A stretch of DNA of 34,276 nt. It comes from an uncultured Planctomyces sp. Its GTDB lineage: Bacteria; Planctomycetota; Planctomycetia; Planctomycetales; Planctomycetaceae. How positions within the stretch are numbered: the stretch's first letter is position 1; every line of letters begins with the position of its first letter. The notes below the pieces were generated by a model. The model was given only the letters and a program-made list of their open reading frames with translations, did no database searches and had not been told where the DNA came from. Shown in pieces: positions 17,593 through 32,319 of this stretch. The stretch lies in the NCBI GenBank assembly GCA_937904325.1, contig CALGTK010000288.1:1-34276 (forward strand). The letters run 5' to 3'. The translations under genes and the position numbers were made by a program.

Positions 17593-20229
17593 ATGCCGTC
17601 CCGCACCACAATCATGGGGCTGTCTGTCACCCTGGCACTTTGTGTCGCACAAGCCGCCAGCGCCGAAGAGGCTCCTCAGGCAAAAGTGCTGCACTACAGT
17701 GGCGGATCGGGCGGTGGAGTCCAGGCCGTTCTGCTGGAAGCTCCGAAGTCGGCTGACACCTTGACTATCCGAGACCACATCATACTCGTCGATACTTCGG
17801 CAAGTCAGAACGGTGGTCACCGAGTTCAGGCACTCGCGACTCTCGACTCCTTCCTCGCCAACCTGGCAGACGGCAGTCGCTTTCGGCTGTTCGCGGTCGA
17901 CGTGGCCCCGGAAGAGCTGACCCAGGGGCTTACTGCTTCGATGGGGGCATCGGCTGACCGTGCTCGGGCATTGCTTGCTCGCCGGGCACCGCTCGGAGCA
18001 ACTGACCTTGGTCGGGCACTGCAGACTGCACTCGACGTTTCAAAAACATCGAAGAAAGCCTCAGTTACTTATATTGGTGACGGCGTCAGCGGTCTTCGAC
18101 TGATTCCAGCTGATCGGTTGCAGACGCTTGTCGACAGCTTCCGTGCAGGCAAAGTCGCAGTGAACAGTTACGCGATCGGACCTCGTCGTGATCTTCAGTT
18201 GCTCGGCGTTCTGGCAAACTGGACTGGCGGAAACATTGTCCTCGACGATGGTGCAACCGATGCTCGAGTTCTTGGCCATAAGCTGGCTCAAACTGCTGAA
18301 CAAACAGTTGTTTATCTTTCAGGCATCGCTGCCCAGGCAAGCGAGACTGATCAGACAAGCGAGACGAAACTACTACCTTCGACAGCTCTTCCTTTGCGAG
18401 GCGACCGTGCAACGGTTTACCTCACACGCGGACCTGCTCCGGCCTCACTCACAGCGAAAGCGGCGAGTGGTGACGTTCACTGGTCAGTAGCCACTGCAAC
18501 ATCGGATGCCGACAACGCGTTCCTGGCGACTCTCGCACAACGCGTTGAGCATTCACTGATTGATTCGCCATTCGCAGGTGAGCAGATGCTGACTGCCGCG
18601 AAGGCCGCGTTCGCACAACGCATCGATCAGTTGTCCGCTCTGGGCGACGCAGCCCTTCTTGATCGAGATCTGAAACAAGCGGCTGAGTTCGGCCAGGCGA
18701 TTCACCGTCTTGATCCGACAAACGAGCAGGCGGCGCGCCTCGTTAAGTCAGCGGCGAAATTCCAGACGATCAGTCAAGTGTCGCAGCCCGCCGATCCAAA
18801 TGCTCCATCTGCTGACGCTACGACTCAACAGCAGACTGGCAGTCTTATCGCAGAGATTGAAATTATCCAGCAAATCAAGACACAGCAGTTCCAGTCGATC
18901 GTGTCTCGAACTATTCAGGAAGCACGGCGGGTGGCGGAAGAGGACCCGGATGCGGCCCTGAGTACACTTAAACGAGCAATTGGAGCAGTCAGAGCTGCCG
19001 AAGACATTGATCCTGACCAGCGAATTGCTCTGGCCAAAAGGCTTCAGGGGGTTCTCGCAGATGTGAAAGGCCAGAAGGAAGTCGTGGAGAACCGGTCGAT
19101 CCGTGCTCAGGAACGCGTCGCGGCCATTCAGGCACAACGTCGATTGATCGATGACATTGCAATTGATGACGATCGACTCGAACGACTGATCGATAACGTT
19201 CGCTCGCTGCTCGAAACTGCGGAACACGGTGAGTCGGATAAGTATCTTGAAGCAGAATCTGTCGCAAAAGAGGCAGTCAGACTGCAGCCAGGAAAGGCAG
19301 TCTCAACTGCGGCTCAGGTTGTGTCAGAAGCGAGCTACCAGCTTCACGTGGCATACTATATGCGTACTCTGCGAGCCGACCGGTTTCTTGAAACTCTGGA
19401 ACAGGTCGAACGGTCGCATGTTCCATTTCCGGATGAACCACCAGTTCGTTGGCCACCGGCCGAGGTCTGGAAAGCACTCACGGAACGGCGAAAGCAGTAT
19501 GCATCGGTCGATCTCCACAAAGCAACGACGGCCGAACGTCGTATTACGGCTGCTTTGGACGATCAAACGACGATTAACTTTGCAGATACTCCGCTAGTGG
19601 ACGTCGTTGAGTATTTGCAGCGTCAGCATGACATCCCGATTATTCTGGATGTAGTCTCCATCGAGGAAGCTGGACTGCTGGTAGATGAGCCGATCAACCT
19701 GGTTCTTGCTGGCGTGACGCTTCAAAGTGCTCTGAAAATCATGCTTTCAGAATTTGAACTGACATACGTGATCGAAGATGAGGTGATGAAGATCACGACG
19801 ATCGAAGTCGCCAACGAAAAGCTGTCGACTCGCGTGTACCCGGTTGGTGACCTTGTGGTTGACCTTGATGCGATGTCGATGGGTGGCGGTGCCTCCGGAG
19901 CCTTCGGCGGCGGTCAACAAGGTGGTCAACAAGGTGGTCAGCAAGGTGGTCAACAAGGCGGCTTTGGTGGCGGCGGCGGTGGAGCCTTCAGTGTTGCTCC
20001 TCCGACACTGCCGAAGGGTATGACCAAGCAGAAAACGGAAAAAGCGAAGCCTGTCAAGCAGCCTGCTGACCCGGAACTGCGTAGTATTCTGGATGGGATT
20101 CTTCACGAATCGACGGCTGACGAGTCCGCGTCCAGCGAGCTGATTTCGTTCGATGGTTACGCTCAAGTGAAAGCGCCAGTGTTTCGTTTTGACAATAAGT
20201 CGATCGAAGAACTGAAAAAAAAACGGTAG
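17593..20229 (+). CDS. vWA and STN-domain periplasmic protein, upstream part of a split frame
   Basis: ATG 17593 is set by GGAG at 17580-17583 and a signal peptide (MGLSVTLALCVAQAASA). The 878-residue reading has a von Willebrand A domain from about residue 60 with the MIDAS motif DTSAS (67-71), GATDLGRAL and YIGDG. Long helical, repeat-like segments follow (about 300-640), including RTIQEARRVAEEDPDAALST. An STN/secretin N-terminal-like domain lies at about 657-752 (INFADTPLVDVVEYL, PINLVLAGVTLQSALKIML). A Gly/Gln linker of GGQQ repeats comes next. The frame ends in TAG directly after nine A (20215-20223). A -1 shift there continues without interruption into the next entry, giving a 1406-residue protein. 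No partner is known; location is inferred periplasmic. Confidence 0.85.
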   Translation: MPSRTTIMGLSVTLALCVAQAASAEEAPQAKVLHYSGGSGGGVQAVLLEAPKSADTLTIRDHIILVDTSASQNGGHRVQALATLDSFLANLADGSRFRLFAVDVAPEELTQGLTASMGASADRARALLARRAPLGATDLGRALQTALDVSKTSKKASVTYIGDGVSGLRLIPADRLQTLVDSFRAGKVAVNSYAIGPRRDLQLLGVLANWTGGNIVLDDGATDARVLGHKLAQTAEQTVVYLSGIAAQASETDQTSETKLLPSTALPLRGDRATVYLTRGPAPASLTAKAASGDVHWSVATATSDADNAFLATLAQRVEHSLIDSPFAGEQMLTAAKAAFAQRIDQLSALGDAALLDRDLKQAAEFGQAIHRLDPTNEQAARLVKSAAKFQTISQVSQPADPNAPSADATTQQQTGSLIAEIEIIQQIKTQQFQSIVSRTIQEARRVAEEDPDAALSTLKRAIGAVRAAEDIDPDQRIALAKRLQGVLADVKGQKEVVENRSIRAQERVAAIQAQRRLIDDIAIDDDRLERLIDNVRSLLETAEHGESDKYLEAESVAKEAVRLQPGKAVSTAAQVVSEASYQLHVAYYMRTLRADRFLETLEQVERSHVPFPDEPPVRWPPAEVWKALTERRKQYASVDLHKATTAERRITAALDDQTTINFADTPLVDVVEYLQRQHDIPIILDVVSIEEAGLLVDEPINLVLAGVTLQSALKIMLSEFELTYVIEDEVMKITTIEVANEKLSTRVYPVGDLVVDLDAMSMGGGASGAFGGGQQGGQQGGQQGGQQGGFGGGGGGAFSVAPPTLPKGMTKQKTEKAKPVKQPADPELRSILDGILHESTADESASSELISFDGYAQVKAPVFRFDNKSIEELKKKR
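19909..19956 (+). repeat. Four tandem 12-bp units encoding GGQQ
   Basis: Four in-frame copies of GGTGGTCAACAA run through the linker between the STN domain and the rest of the protein, with only two single-base variations (GGC in the first unit, CAG in the third). Being a multiple of three, copy-number change would alter only linker length. Confidence 0.9.
20215..20223 (+). other. A9 homopolymer at the -1 frame change
   Basis: Nine consecutive A occupy three Lys codons just before CGG TAG. Re-reading the last A gives ACG GTA GGT and opens the downstream frame to 21812. A ten-A template would make the frame continuous. Possible explanations are transcriptional slippage, -1 ribosomal frameshifting, a real one-base deletion, or a homopolymer sequencing error. 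Confidence 0.75.
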
Positions 20230-21812
20230 GTTCGAGTGGGACTGCGGGAACTGCGAAGGATGAGGGTCACGCTGAGCGTGAGCTTAAGTCTTCCAAAGCG
20301 AACCTGACCGATCAGAAGAAACGAGGGGCAAGCACCGCTGGTGTTAGACCCCGTTCTTCTGCGCAGCCTGAGTCTACGCAACGGCAAACTGGTTCGAAGC
20401 CAGTCGGTGCCAGACACGCGGTGACTGCAGCAGCGGGAAAAGCTGGTACGGAGCCGCCCGGCGAGGCATGGTATCGCCGGTTTAAGCAGACAACATATCC
20501 GCCGAAGGATGTCATTCGCGTCGTCGGAAAGCTGCACGCAGCAGAGAGGCACGACGAAAACGTTGCGTTGATAACAGCCGCCATTACGTTGGGGCAGTCT
20601 CAGCCCTGGATGTACGACGTGCTTCCCTTGTCGATGAAACTGGCCGGCCGACCTCAGCACGAAATCGAACGGGCTTTAACATCACGAATTGACTTTACAA
20701 CGACCAACATTGAATCACTGCTTCATTCTGCTTCGAGAATGAGTGTACTGGACGGCAAAGAACTGGCGTTGGAACTCTACCAGCAAGCGGCATGGCTCGA
20801 TCCGACACACCCAATTCCCTACGCGATGGCGATGAACCTCGCTCGCAAAGCGAAAGACGTGGATGCGACGGAGTGGGCCTGCACTGGAATTCTCACACAC
20901 GTCTGGACGAAAGATTTCCAGAAGCGTCACGATTCCGCCAGAGACGCGGCGGCCGACACCGTGCAGGAATTGTTCAAGGCGGGAAAAATGGACCGCCTGA
21001 AGACGTTCAAAGAGGCTGTTGTACAGGCCGAACGGCGAGATTTGCACATTAAGGTTGAGTGGTCAGGCGATGGCGATCTGGACTTGAGAATTAAGGAACC
21101 AATGGGAACAGAATGTTCTGTTGAGCAGACGAAGACAGCTTCTGGCGGACTCCACATTCACGACGGTTTCGGCCCTCGCCGGGATAACTGTTACGAAGAA
21201 TACATCTGCGTCGAGGCGGCCTCCGGGACCTACGAATTGCAGATCGAGCACGTTGACGGAAATATTGTCAGCAAACGTTGCGTGGTGACAATTGTCAGTC
21301 ATGTCGGCTCCTCTTCGAAGCGAGTTTATCGACACGTTGTGACGCTGGATGGACTGGGGGATGGGCTCGTGGCGACTTTGCCGTTCAAACTGCAGAACGG
21401 GCGTCGCAAGGAACTTGGACCGAAGCCGCAGAAACAGCGGTCAGTGCAAGGGGTAACTCGTCTGAAACGGCAGCAGATTATCGCCCGCGTGCGTCGAGGG
21501 CAGCCGCTGGTCGGAGGTCAGATTGCTGGACAAGCTGGAGCGGGGCAGGGGGCGACACCGCGCGCAGGATTTCGGTTACCGGCTGGAGCGTTCACAGCGG
21601 GCGTTGGATTCACGCCGATCATTGGCTTCATTAATGAGGGCGTTTCGTTGACGGCGAACGCTGTGGTGTCGGCGGATCGTCGATTTGTGAGGATTTCGGT
21701 CGCTCCCTTTTTTAACACGCTGCGAGAGATTCAGACGTTCAGTTTGCAGGGCGGAAACACAGCTCCACAAGGTGGCGGTGCCCTTCCTCAGGCCGGCGGT
21801 GCTGGTCAGTAG
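20223..21812 (+). CDS. Downstream part of the vWA/STN protein, reached by a -1 shift
   Basis: This frame is open from the A9 run to TAG 21810-21812 and encodes 529 residues with no signal peptide, no nearby ATG and no ribosome site. GTG 20421 is its first formal start candidate and has none. The first ~75 residues are a Lys/Ser/Ala-rich linker (KRGASTAGVRPRSS), then a helical region (ERHDENVALITAAI, ELYQQAAWLDPTHP). A YfaP/DUF2135-like beta-sandwich follows (WSGDGDLDLRIKEP, NCYEEYICVEAASGTYELQI). At the C-terminus, FTPIIGFINEGVSLTANAVV and SADRRFVRISVAPFF resemble the terminal motif of planctomycete secretin-like proteins. It ends in Gly/Gln-rich sequence. Continuity of style and the lack of a start argue that it is the second part of the preceding gene. 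Confidence 0.75.
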   Translation, partial: TVGSSGTAGTAKDEGHAERELKSSKANLTDQKKRGASTAGVRPRSSAQPESTQRQTGSKPVGARHAVTAAAGKAGTEPPGEAWYRRFKQTTYPPKDVIRVVGKLHAAERHDENVALITAAITLGQSQPWMYDVLPLSMKLAGRPQHEIERALTSRIDFTTTNIESLLHSASRMSVLDGKELALELYQQAAWLDPTHPIPYAMAMNLARKAKDVDATEWACTGILTHVWTKDFQKRHDSARDAAADTVQELFKAGKMDRLKTFKEAVVQAERRDLHIKVEWSGDGDLDLRIKEPMGTECSVEQTKTASGGLHIHDGFGPRRDNCYEEYICVEAASGTYELQIEHVDGNIVSKRCVVTIVSHVGSSSKRVYRHVVTLDGLGDGLVATLPFKLQNGRRKELGPKPQKQRSVQGVTRLKRQQIIARVRRGQPLVGGQIAGQAGAGQGATPRAGFRLPAGAFTAGVGFTPIIGFINEGVSLTANAVVSADRRFVRISVAPFFNTLREIQTFSLQGGNTAPQGGGALPQAGGAGQ

Positions 21813-25062: not shown

Positions 25063-25143
25063 GGTATTATCCGGCTTATGAAATCGTAAGGTGTGGTAAC
25101 TGATTCGCCGGCACACCATCGCACGAATGTTCGAACCCTAATC

Positions 25144-25186
25144 GACGCTGATATTCACTAATCAACGATTAGCGAATATCAGTGTC
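25144..25186 (+). promoter_or_regulatory. Very strong hairpin ahead of the peroxiredoxin/hydroxylase fusion gene
   Basis: Bases 25144-25163 pair with 25167-25186 around a three-base loop AAC. There are nineteen pairs (one G-T) and one A/C mismatch at 25057-equivalent position 25157/25173. The left arm starts GACGCTGATATTC and the right arm ends GAATATCAGTGTC. It lies 81 bases after the metG stop and 37 bases before ATG 25224. No T-run follows. It could be an operator dyad, an RNA element of the leader, or the end structure of the metG transcript. Confidence 0.7.
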
Positions 25187-25211
25187 AATTAATGTTGTGT
25201 CAGTTCCAGAC

Positions 25212-27942: not shown

Positions 27943-30900
27943 CTATTCCAGGCTTTCAAAGTACCGTCGAAGCCGGTCTTCGTACGCACGAGGCGCTCGC
28001 CGCTGACTGCCGGCGATGATTGCCTTTCGCAGTTCGGCGGGCAGCTTGGCGAACCAGGCGGCCTGTCGCAGTTGTCGCGATTCGATTTGGCGAGTTCGAT
28101 CGGTCGAATTAGGGGTGCGGCCGTCTTTAGAGGGCGTCGCTGTATCGACAACGTTGAGCGGCTCGTCTTTCGTTGGCTGGTTCTCTGTCTCAAGGCCAAC
28201 GTTAGAATCTCCTCCTCCCTCGGACTTCTGTGACGCCTGTGCATTCTGTGGTGGTAGCCCCGTGCCTGGCGGCTGGCCAGACGGCGGTTCAGAAGTTGCA
28301 GGCTGACCAGCTTCTGCAGCCGCTGCCTGAGCGGCCGCGTTGTCAGCGTTCTGTGTGGCGTCTGTGAGGGCAGCCTTCATCAGCTCAGACAACTGAGCCA
28401 GTAGTTCGGGATCTGCCATCAGACGGGCTGTTGCCTCAGGCGAGTCGGGGACGAAGCCGGTGCCCAAATCAGCAGACTGCGGTGGGCCCTGTTGAGGACT
28501 ACCGGGTTGTTCGCCATTTGGTGGCCCTGACTGAGGTTGACTGGCCGCGTCTGCTCCTGCTTGCGGAGTTCCAGCCTGTTCTGCGGAAGCGGATGAATCG
28601 CCACTTTCTGCAGGTTCGTCTCCGAGAGCTGAAGGACCTTCCGTAGTTGGCGAGTCTGCATCTGCGGATGCGGGAGGTTGCTGAGTCGATGGATCAACGC
28701 CCGCGAGTTCTGAAGTCTGATCATGGGGAGTGGTCGGTGGTTGTTTCGTAGTCGTCAGTAGTTCGGATGCGAGATCGAGTGCTTCTCGAATCGGCAGGTT
28801 GGCGACTTCTTCCTGACCGGACAGTTGCACGGCACCTTCCCCGGTTAGCTGCTGGGATTCCGAAAACTGCTTCATCGCCTGAGCCAACTTCCGGGCAGCA
28901 CTTTTATCATCGGTTGTCATCGCGGAAGAACTGTTCTCTGACGTCGAGTCGCCGTTGCCGGGCTTCGCTGGATCGAGCTTAGGATCAGGTGCTGATTGAT
29001 TATTAGATTCTTTAAGAGCGTTACGGGCGTCGGCGAGTTGCTCGACGGAATCCTGTTGCGACTTCGCGAGTTCAGCCAGTGCTTGAGCCAACGCCTGCTC
29101 GCGTTCGAGTTGCTGAGCCTTTGCAGCCAGGTCTGCGGCGGCTCTTTCCAGATTTTCAGCGATGGCCTTATCGGCGGTTACGGCGTCGAATCCATCAGGT
29201 GGAGTTCCCGGTGAGGTTACCTCTGGTGGAGCTTCAATGCCCGTTTCCGGCGTGGCTGCGGCGAGATCTTTGGCTGCTTTTCCAGCTTCGGTGGCTGTGC
29301 GTTGAGCATCGCGGATCGCCGATGCTGCGCTTGCATCTACTAACGCAGACTTTTCTGCGGCAGTGTCGGCTTTGTCAGTGACATTGCCCAATTCCGTAGC
29401 CTGCTTACCAGCCAGCTCTTTTGCTGCTGCGTCCAGCGTTGCTGCTGCTGCAGTCAACGCGTCGGTGGTTGTCTTCTGGGAATTCTTCGCCATTTCAGGC
29501 AGATTCTTGACCAGCTCCTTCGCAGCTTGTTTTGCCGCATCGGCTGCTTCGTCCAGAGCACCGGCGGCCTCGCCTGCGTCGTTCTTCGCAAGCTCTCCGG
29601 CTGCTTCGGCCTTAGCGGCAACTTCCTTTTGAGCTTTCGGATCGGGCGTTCCTGTTGGTTTTGCGGCCGCTGCCTGATCGGCTTCGGTTACAGCGGCTTC
29701 GAGTGCTTCGGCGAGTGCGTCACGGGCCTGTTTCCGAGCCGCGTCGGCTGCTTCTGAGTTTCCGTCAAGTGCCTGACGTGCGGCTTCGGCTCCAGCCTGT
29801 TGCGCCTGTTCAAGTGCGGCTGTCAGAGGGTCGGGTTTGTTTGCTGCCAGAGCAGCTTTGCCCTGGGGACGATCCTTTGCTTCCAGCGCGAGTTTTTGTG
29901 CCAGGTCCGATACGCTGAGCTGCTTTGTAGCTGCTTCCAATGGAGTGGCTGCCGCACCGGAATCAACATCCTGCGCAGCCTTGTCGGCGGATTCTTGAGT
30001 CGTCTGCGCCTCGTCAATTCGCCGTGCAAGGTCCATGGCGTCGGCGGTTTCGGGGCGGCCTTCTGCTCGTTGTTGCTCGATAAACGCGTCCGCGACTTTG
30101 CTGCGAGCCTCTGCCAGTTTTTGAATCCTATCGGCGACAGATTTCTCGGTTTCCAGGATTGTGTCGTCGACCGCCGCTTGAGCGTCCGCCACTTTGCTTA
30201 ATTGTTCTGCCGAGAGTTGAGCGAGTTGCTCAGCAGTTTTTGCGATTTCATTCCGCAGTTCCTGAGCGGCCGATGCAAGAACTCTGGCCGCTTCTTCGGC
30301 GTTTGGAGCAGCATCCTTCGCTGCGTCCGCTGCTTTCTGGCTGGCGTCTGTTGCAGATGTTTCAGCGGATGCCAGCGCTGCCTTGTCGTCCTGGTTGGCG
30401 GCCTGTTCCGCAGCAGCGTTTGCGGATTCCGTTTGCTCGGCAGCGGCGGCAATCTGGTCGAGCGGTGCCGTTGCTGCTTTCACTTTTTCGCCGGCCTGCT
30501 GGAGGGCCTGAGCAACTTCGGGGGATGTTTCTTTGACACCTTCCGCGATTCGTTCCGCAACATCCTGCACTGTCTTCTGTTCTTTCGTCATTTCTTTTGC
30601 TGTGGTGGCGTTAACTGGTTTTCCAGCGGCGATCTCTTTGGCTGTTTCAGCGATCTTTCGCTCCGCAGCGGCGGCGCGTTCAAGAGCTTCTGCGGCGCGG
30701 GCCAATTCTCCAATTTTGACGGCCGCTTCCATTCGTTTTGCTTCTGCCAGGGATTCCTGTGTGCTGGCCAACGCTCGTTCGACTGCGTCTGATGCGTTCT
30801 GTGTAGCGTCCTTGGCGGCCGCGAGTTTCTCGTCACTGTCGGCGGCTTGAGCTTTAGCTGCGTCTTCAGCGGCGTCGGCGGCTTTGGCGACCGCGTCCTC

Positions 30901-32319
30901 TGCAGCAGCGACCGTCGCCGTGAGTTCTTCCGGAAGTTCACGTTTTTCGGTGGCGCTGGTAGCTTCTTTTAACGCAACTTCCACGGCCGTCTCCTGCTGA
31001 GCCGCTTTGGCCGGATCGGTCGCAGTGTTGTCTTCGGCCTGCTGCTGTTGCTGCATGGCCTGTTCGAGTTGTTCCTTTGTTGCTTCAAGGTCCTTAACGG
31101 TTTGTGCGAGTTCAGTTGCTGTCTTGTCGGTTAGCTGAGCCTGCATGTCCTGTTGAAGTTTGTCCTGCAGGGCGGCAAGGTGACCTTCGACCAGTCGTTG
31201 GGCGTTGATGGCTTGCTCGGGTTCTTCGGAGAAAATCTGTTCTGACGCCTGAGTGGCTGCTTCGATGGCGCTCTGGACATGTTCAGCAGCTTGAGGGTTG
31301 TCAGCCACGGCTTCCGCCAGCTCTTCGAGTTCAGCCTTAATCTCATCCTGCTCGGTCGTGAGGTCACTCGATTCGTCAGCGTTGGAGAGGTCAGTCTTTT
31401 GCACTTTCGCGCGAACCTCGCTTTGCTTGTTCGCGAGTTCCTCGATTCTTTCGATGATGGATTCGGAGTCTGAGCTGATCAATCCCTGCGTATGCAACAC
31501 TTCATCGAGTAGTCGTTTCAAGCCCGCGACGACCTGCGCCTGCTCAACGGCTGACGCAGCAAATCGGGTAGCGGCGAGTTCTGCACCGGCGCGGTCAAGG
31601 TGCAGCCCGACTTCTTGTTTCTTTAGAATGATCAATCCTTTCGTCGCTCCTTGACCGATTGTCCCATCCCACGAACTGACGTCCGCCAGTGTTTCGACAA
31701 GATGCAGGAACAGTTCTTTAATATCCTGCTGATCCTCAATCGTGCGGACGGCGAGTTGCTCGCGCCGAGTCTGGGATTCTTCTGGAAGCCCTTTGGTGAC
31801 GGTCATGGTTGCTGTCTCGAGGTTGATCAGGCGTTTGATCTGCTCGGCAATTTCGGCATTGCGAAGGCGCCTCAGGAGGTTGTGCCGTTCGATGGCCAGG
31901 CGAACGACGATCTGTCGGATTGTGCTGCGTGCAGTAACAAACTTTGCTTCGCGATCGGCGGGCTTACTGAGTCGTTGCGCGTTGAGTAGAAGTTCGACCA
32001 CGTCGGCCATTTCAGTTTCGACCAGTTCACCGATGCTGCTGCGCATGGTGGTAATTTCTTTGTAGATCGGCAGGTCAGTCAGACCGTTGTCTTCAAGCTG
32101 GTGGATCTGAAGATCGACGGCGTTTGAGACAAGTTTCTGAGCCATTGCCCGTGCACGCTGTTGGTCGATTTGCTTGCGTCGCAGAGCAAGCTTGTCAACG
32201 GCGGTCGCAGATTCGGGGGTGATAGCTAAAGTCATCATCAAAACTGCGAGGCCAACAATGCCGAATCGATGTGGGTGTTCCGCAAAGTCGCTGGTCGAAT
32301 GAAAAAGCATCTGCGTCAT
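27943..32319 (-). CDS. Giant alanine-rich coiled-coil envelope protein, partner of the DUF4175-like protein
   Basis: The 1458-residue product has an N-terminal hydrophobic signal or anchor (FGIVGLAVLMMTLAI). A conserved helical head follows (about 45-270; LRRKQIDQQRARAMAQKLV, AIERHNLLRRLRNAEI). A huge Ala/Glu/Gln/Lys/Asp-rich region (about 300-1200) with coiled-coil spacing comes next, then a Pro/Gln/Ser-rich low-complexity stretch (about 1206-1360). The compact C-terminus WFAKLPAELRKAIIAG, RAYEDRLRRYFESLE is the most family-like piece. ATG 32319 overlaps the stop of the upstream gene by four bases (ATGA), and GGAG lies seven bases before it, so the two are translationally coupled. Such pairs are found in planctomycetes; their role is unknown, with an envelope or periplasmic scaffold as inference. 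Overlapping plus-strand frames are antisense artefacts of its repetitive codons. Confidence 0.9.
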   Translation of the reverse strand: MTQMLFHSTSDFAEHPHRFGIVGLAVLMMTLAITPESATAVDKLALRRKQIDQQRARAMAQKLVSNAVDLQIHQLEDNGLTDLPIYKEITTMRSSIGELVETEMADVVELLLNAQRLSKPADREAKFVTARSTIRQIVVRLAIERHNLLRRLRNAEIAEQIKRLINLETATMTVTKGLPEESQTRREQLAVRTIEDQQDIKELFLHLVETLADVSSWDGTIGQGATKGLIILKKQEVGLHLDRAGAELAATRFAASAVEQAQVVAGLKRLLDEVLHTQGLISSDSESIIERIEELANKQSEVRAKVQKTDLSNADESSDLTTEQDEIKAELEELAEAVADNPQAAEHVQSAIEAATQASEQIFSEEPEQAINAQRLVEGHLAALQDKLQQDMQAQLTDKTATELAQTVKDLEATKEQLEQAMQQQQQAEDNTATDPAKAAQQETAVEVALKEATSATEKRELPEELTATVAAAEDAVAKAADAAEDAAKAQAADSDEKLAAAKDATQNASDAVERALASTQESLAEAKRMEAAVKIGELARAAEALERAAAAERKIAETAKEIAAGKPVNATTAKEMTKEQKTVQDVAERIAEGVKETSPEVAQALQQAGEKVKAATAPLDQIAAAAEQTESANAAAEQAANQDDKAALASAETSATDASQKAADAAKDAAPNAEEAARVLASAAQELRNEIAKTAEQLAQLSAEQLSKVADAQAAVDDTILETEKSVADRIQKLAEARSKVADAFIEQQRAEGRPETADAMDLARRIDEAQTTQESADKAAQDVDSGAAATPLEAATKQLSVSDLAQKLALEAKDRPQGKAALAANKPDPLTAALEQAQQAGAEAARQALDGNSEAADAARKQARDALAEALEAAVTEADQAAAAKPTGTPDPKAQKEVAAKAEAAGELAKNDAGEAAGALDEAADAAKQAAKELVKNLPEMAKNSQKTTTDALTAAAATLDAAAKELAGKQATELGNVTDKADTAAEKSALVDASAASAIRDAQRTATEAGKAAKDLAAATPETGIEAPPEVTSPGTPPDGFDAVTADKAIAENLERAAADLAAKAQQLEREQALAQALAELAKSQQDSVEQLADARNALKESNNQSAPDPKLDPAKPGNGDSTSENSSSAMTTDDKSAARKLAQAMKQFSESQQLTGEGAVQLSGQEEVANLPIREALDLASELLTTTKQPPTTPHDQTSELAGVDPSTQQPPASADADSPTTEGPSALGDEPAESGDSSASAEQAGTPQAGADAASQPQSGPPNGEQPGSPQQGPPQSADLGTGFVPDSPEATARLMADPELLAQLSELMKAALTDATQNADNAAAQAAAAEAGQPATSEPPSGQPPGTGLPPQNAQASQKSEGGGDSNVGLETENQPTKDEPLNVVDTATPSKDGRTPNSTDRTRQIESRQLRQAAWFAKLPAELRKAIIAGSQRRAPRAYEDRLRRYFESLE

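Follow-up and report, generated by a model that had tools for sequence, protein, structure and literature searches.

A run of nine adenines separates two reading frames of a planctomycete gene, and the comparative data favour one gene with two products. The proposed explanation is programmed slippage of RNA polymerase on this run, which would yield a short protein with von Willebrand factor A (vWA) and STN-like domains and a long form that also carries a TPR-like superhelix and a beta-sandwich. We give this reading a probability of about 0.7, in the absence of RNA or protein data. Genome comparison supports the conservation of the break, the run, the nearby stop and the selection on both halves; that the polymerase is the slipping machine and not the ribosome is inferred, as is the ratio of the products.

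The nine-A run and its two reading frames

The window, by which the whole analysed stretch of 34,276 nucleotides is meant, is contig 288 of an 8-Mb MAG (G000, 488 contigs). The features of the gene and its junction are the following.

17593..20229, plus strand: open reading frame of frame 0, the short form of 878 aa, from ATG 17593 to TAG 20227-20229; it includes a signal-peptide-like start, vWA, a long helical region, an STN-like domain and a Gly/Gln-rich linker (VWA_3 match, AlphaFold2 secondary structure)
17779..18237, plus strand: vWA domain, residues 63-215 (Pfam VWA_3, E 5e-13)
19528..19800, plus strand: STN-like alpha/beta domain, residues about 646-736 (AlphaFold2 secondary structure)
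20215..20223, plus strand: A9, the putative slip site, read AAA AAA AAA in frame 0
20223..21812, plus strand: open reading frame of the -1 frame, C-terminal half of the long form, 529 codons, stop at 21810-21812
20227..20229, plus strand: TAG stop of frame 0, end of the short form
20255..20293, plus strand: weak local hairpin, 15 pairs with 3 mismatches, CACGC/GCGTG core
20457..21032, plus strand: TPR-like alpha superhelix, residues 79-270 of the -1 part (predicted structure)
21036..21392, plus strand: beta-sandwich, residues 272-390 of the -1 part (predicted structure)
21642..21713, plus strand: C-terminal strand pair, residues 474-497 of the -1 part, with a resemblance to the C-terminal end of large paralogs from related genomes

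The initial annotation had described nine A followed by TAG and a -1 frame open for 529 codons, and the sequence bears this out: the TAG lies 3 nt 3′ of the run. It had also found no start codon, ribosome binding site or signal peptide belonging to the -1 frame, and none was present in the window sequence; the first ATG, GTG or TTG of this frame is GTG 20421. Its proposal that products of 878 and 1406 residues come from one gene by slippage on the run is the reading favoured here. The short form lacks the beta-sandwich and the secretin-like end, as had been anticipated, and the TPR superhelix as well, which the annotation had not named. The A9 is the only A-run of at least 7 in the window. In the 8-Mb genome A9 occurs 33 times, so that it is rare and not unique, and none of 30 other A9 loci from five genomes joined frames as the junction A9 does; the frame joining thus seems specific to this gene.

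Membership of the short form in VWA_3 was met with 49.7 bits against the curated Pfam cut-off of 27; one Isosphaeraceae homolog that was read appears to be without the vWA part. The STN name for residues about 646-736 is our assumption from sequence features, and Pfam gave no match for this domain. For the -1 half, neither Pfam nor NCBIfam gave a match in the window protein; the beta-sandwich showed a weak DUF2135 or pre-peptidase C-terminal resemblance in relatives. Domain borders were taken from the predicted structure. The domains, partly modelled, lead us to infer an exported, scaffold-like envelope protein whose function itself is unknown; export of both products is likewise an inference.

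Two further observations were made elsewhere in the window. A 23-bp palindrome (TAATCGACGCTGATATTCACTAATC...) lies at 25139-25191 between a metG-like gene and a 2OG-Fe(II) oxygenase gene, and a very similar one in a congener (L164 from 9195) makes it look like a repeated palindromic element. On the minus strand, 27943-32319 holds an open reading frame of 1458 aa that lies in a stretch of strong AT skew and has no Pfam match.

Conservation of the run and the break in two families

The closest relatives of the window bore names such as Planctomycetaceae bacterium, Gimesia, Schlesneria and Thalassoglobus, and the family numbered f1 was taken as Planctomycetaceae. Upstream and downstream halves adjoin each other in the relatives. 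The downstream half was present in 156 of the 170 genomes of this family searched; junction DNA was examined in some 130 of the 156, and an A-run was nearly always found at the break. A clear -1 break was detected in 113 genomes, with A9 in 109, A10 in two (G015, G109) and A8G in two Schlesneria-type sister genomes (G167, G172). Two apparent exceptions to the -1 offset (L063 in G191 and L071 in G093) proved to be -1 as well after a second indel, 5′ of the run, was counted. These second indels, in draft genomes, are probably assembly errors. A +1 break with A9 was found in five genomes of three genera: G008, G095 and G096 of one genus, and G106 and G030, which are single draft genomes. Finally, the Schlesneria-type genome G163 (L119 / L259) has A10 in frame and a single ORF of 1351 aa, which looks like a natural return to the fused state, unless assembly produced it.

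In a second family (f2), taken as Isosphaeraceae, A9 and the -1 break were present in all 38 genomes in which both halves were readable, G042, taken as the finished chromosome of Isosphaera pallida, among them; the register was nAA AAA AAA Axx with the stop 5 nt on in 36 of the 38. The -1 break was thus counted in 151 genomes (113 Planctomycetaceae and 38 Isosphaeraceae), 147 of them with A9, two with A10 and two with A8G. The genomes are related and many are MAGs, so these are not 151 independent events. The initial annotation had suggested asking whether run and break are conserved in homologs, and both are kept across genera of Planctomycetaceae and in the second family. This comparison rejects a strain-specific deletion.

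The run is held while its surroundings vary. Its codon register was 0 in 97 of the 151 genomes, 1 in 40 and 2 in 14, the peptides over it differ (LKKKR, QKKSN, AKKKP) and the flanking linker is variable; AAA makes up 45% of Lys codons in Planctomycetaceae and 19% in Isosphaeraceae. A stop in frame 0 follows within 0-27 nt 3′ of the run in 151 of 151. Outside the junction, A-runs never exceeded 8 in this gene region, about 0.5 Mb summed over the 151 genomes, and the absence of longer runs there together with the conservation across 151 genomes excludes chance. The frame change could be confined to an interval of at most 30 nt around the run in 29 genomes, and in one of these to 7 nt that fall within the run itself. 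In many cases the -1 frame becomes open merely a few nucleotides 5′ of the run, and between the run and the conserved domain not one stop was met in about 7200 linker codons of the -1 frame from 113 genomes. Purifying selection acts on the downstream half, with dN/dS mostly 0.04-0.17 in -1 and +1 lineages; the +1 genomes G095 and G096 gave 0.07, a constraint as in the -1 lineages.

In most other families of the class the gene is a single unbroken ORF of about 1300-1650 aa, and no long A-run was seen in the linkers of the fused ORFs that were read. In two genomes of family f16 and one of f12 the halves are separate genes (L292, L293, L294), of which the second reads as having its own ribosome site and a signal-peptide-like start. 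Fused, A9-broken and two-gene forms therefore make three architectures of one protein, and the fused and two-gene versions show that both halves serve one function. A gene tree left the number of A9 origins unresolved. The +1 version of the break, the fused and split-gene versions and the conserved hairpin described below go beyond what the initial annotation contained.

A hairpin beyond the short-form stop

A structure scan detected a strong stem-loop that starts 34-124 nt 3′ of the run (middle half 56-81 nt), past the stop of the short form and within the -1 frame. The stem has a median of 16 pairs among the strong hairpins of Planctomycetaceae. A hairpin score of at least 12 was reached by 47% of 77 thinned Planctomycetaceae sequences and 14% of 28 from Isosphaeraceae, and by 0% in each of three controls. 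Covariation supports the stem, both sides having changed in 10 of its 14 base pairs in Schlesneria-type genomes and in 8 of 17 in a mixed Isosphaeraceae set; since these alignments had also served to predict the structure, the test leans towards the hairpin. The hairpin of the window is much weaker than in most relatives, no comparable stem was found in the fused genes tested, and the in-frame G163 has one of 8 bp only. No Rfam family was detected in the window.

A T-rich tail (at least 5 T in 8) accompanied 10 of 45 hairpins. A 400-kb stretch of one genome (G175) contained 13 hairpins of score at least 11, and such rarity gives no support to a common genomic repeat; of eight intergenic ones in that stretch, six lie within 80 nt of a gene 3′ end. 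The position beyond the short-form stop suggests, as a hypothesis, that the hairpin forms the mRNA end of the short form. More speculatively, it might be a conditional mRNA end, either a terminator or a 3′-protecting stem, formed when ribosomes stop at the frame 0 stop and melted by ribosomes that translate the -1 frame. The run, the stop within 27 nt and the hairpin could then be one device in which slippage decides beforehand between stopping before the hairpin and translating through it, an idea that we put forward only tentatively and hold to be rather doubtful. Should it be true, slippage would gate the extent of the mRNA (a short end versus continued transcription) besides the reading frame.

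Proposed polymerase slippage, competing readings and known systems

In the mechanism proposed, RNA polymerase would slip on the nine-A run. Transcripts with nine A would be translated a few codons beyond the run to the frame 0 stop, giving the short protein with signal peptide, vWA, helical region and STN-like domain. A fraction of transcripts gaining one A, or losing one A in the +1 lineages, would have the frames joined and give the long protein, which adds the TPR superhelix, the beta-sandwich and the secretin-like tail. A gene of this kind is expected to have an A/T homopolymer of at least 8-9 at the junction, to retain it with both frames open and under selection, and to place it in any register and with frame changes in both directions. 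All of this is met, by the A9, A10 and A8 runs of the 151 genomes, by registers 0, 1 and 2 and by the +1 genomes.

The main competing reading, to be taken seriously and yet on balance unlikely, is programmed -1 ribosomal frameshifting on A_AAA_AAA as in dnaX, with the mRNA unedited. Its heptamer, A_AAA_AAA or A_AAA_AAG, is contained in every run and in the registers seen, almost all genomes show a -1 offset, and the A8G of G167 and G172 retains A_AAA_AAG, which in E. coli is the classic site of -1 ribosomal frameshifting. A slight surplus of structure immediately 3′ of the run in Isosphaeraceae points weakly the same way (at offsets 0-9, mean z about -1, and -0.4 to -0.7 in Planctomycetaceae). 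A ribosomal heptamer needs only 7 nt and allows AAG, yet runs of fewer than 8 A were never seen; polymerase slippage is favoured because a homopolymer of 9 nt is kept in any register and over different peptides. The A9 also serves the +1 breaks of five genomes in three genera, where an offset that is always -1 fails and which -1 ribosomal slippage cannot bridge. An SD-like stimulator was not enriched (7 of 113 against 12 expected, and 2 of 38 against 1.5), no strong structure stands at the usual ribosomal distance, and the strong hairpin, 34-124 nt off, is too distant for direct contact and is ruled out as a direct stimulator. The run length of nine, in turn, matches the RNA-DNA hybrid of the polymerase, which is 9-10 bp, and slippage on A9/T9 is efficient in bacteria (PMC5009743; PMC1088944).

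Three other readings were weighed against polymerase slippage. A phase-variable (contingency) tract, in which replication slippage toggles the long form between cells, would suit a homopolymer in the gene of a surface-type protein and the in-frame A10 of G163; about a third of genomes should then be in frame, as against one of about 157, and the offset stays -1 despite altered run length (A10, A8G), which makes it very improbable. No more credible is a pair of independent genes, the downstream ORF being translated from an internal start without any part for slippage. The halves are indeed two genes in f16 and f12, and a hairpin resembling those at gene ends sits between them, but the downstream ORF of the A9 families has no signal peptide and in many cases no start codon near its beginning, extends without a stop back to the run in each genome, and would not need the run to be conserved. 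That a homopolymer error or a real deletion would look the same had been cautioned in the initial annotation, and the concern has some ground in a homopolymer on a MAG contig; it is answered by run and break being kept in dozens of genera and a second family. The same run and break occur in many complete genomes, and several genomes of genus g53, to which Gimesia belongs, show them in a single contig. Error can be practically ruled out because the same A9 break stands in the I. pallida chromosome, finished with 109x Illumina and 31x 454 coverage.

A close parallel to the proposed polymerase slippage on this run is dnaX of Thermus thermophilus, where one gene likewise gives two products, with nine A on the sense strand and stop codons close by (PMC1088944). 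Its in-frame product is the long one and slippage yields the short one, whereas in planctomycetes the short form is in frame; the protein is another, and no conserved hairpin after the stop is described in the sources consulted. In mxiE of Shigella flexneri overlapping ORFs are joined by an inserted base and slippage gives the long product (PMC1088944), but the run is of U and the gene a virulence regulator, as opposed to an A run in an unrelated protein of two families. The two-ORF dnaX of Chlorobi and others in the GeneTack survey also has adjacent ORFs joined across poly-A (PMC3711429), in another gene and with a more variable run of 7-10. Frameshifts at A-runs are bypassed by polymerase slippage in Blochmannia and Buchnera (PMC5009743); those genomes are reduced and AT-rich, whereas the planctomycete genomes are large, their GC content is about 55% or higher, and the gene has no long A-run elsewhere. 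The -1 ribosomal frameshifting in dnaX of E. coli shares the A-rich slippery site and the direction; the planctomycete gene differs in lacking an SD-like element and a strong hairpin at the usual distance, in its +1 lineages and in its 9 nt instead of a heptamer. Open papers on slippage or frameshifting in Planctomycetes contained no matching case.

To our knowledge, few examples exist of cellular bacterial genes that put transcriptional slippage to productive use (dnaX, Shigella type III genes, some endosymbionts and IS elements). The planctomycete case seems to be a single chromosomal gene that has retained it throughout two whole families. In the genomes that carry it, the gene will probably be split or wrongly annotated by gene callers. 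Cultured strains of Gimesia, Thalassoglobus and Isosphaera are among the carriers, and with the covarying hairpin a connection of slippage to mRNA end formation can be put to the test. The same protein, being fused or encoded by two genes elsewhere, offers a natural experiment on why short and long forms are made.
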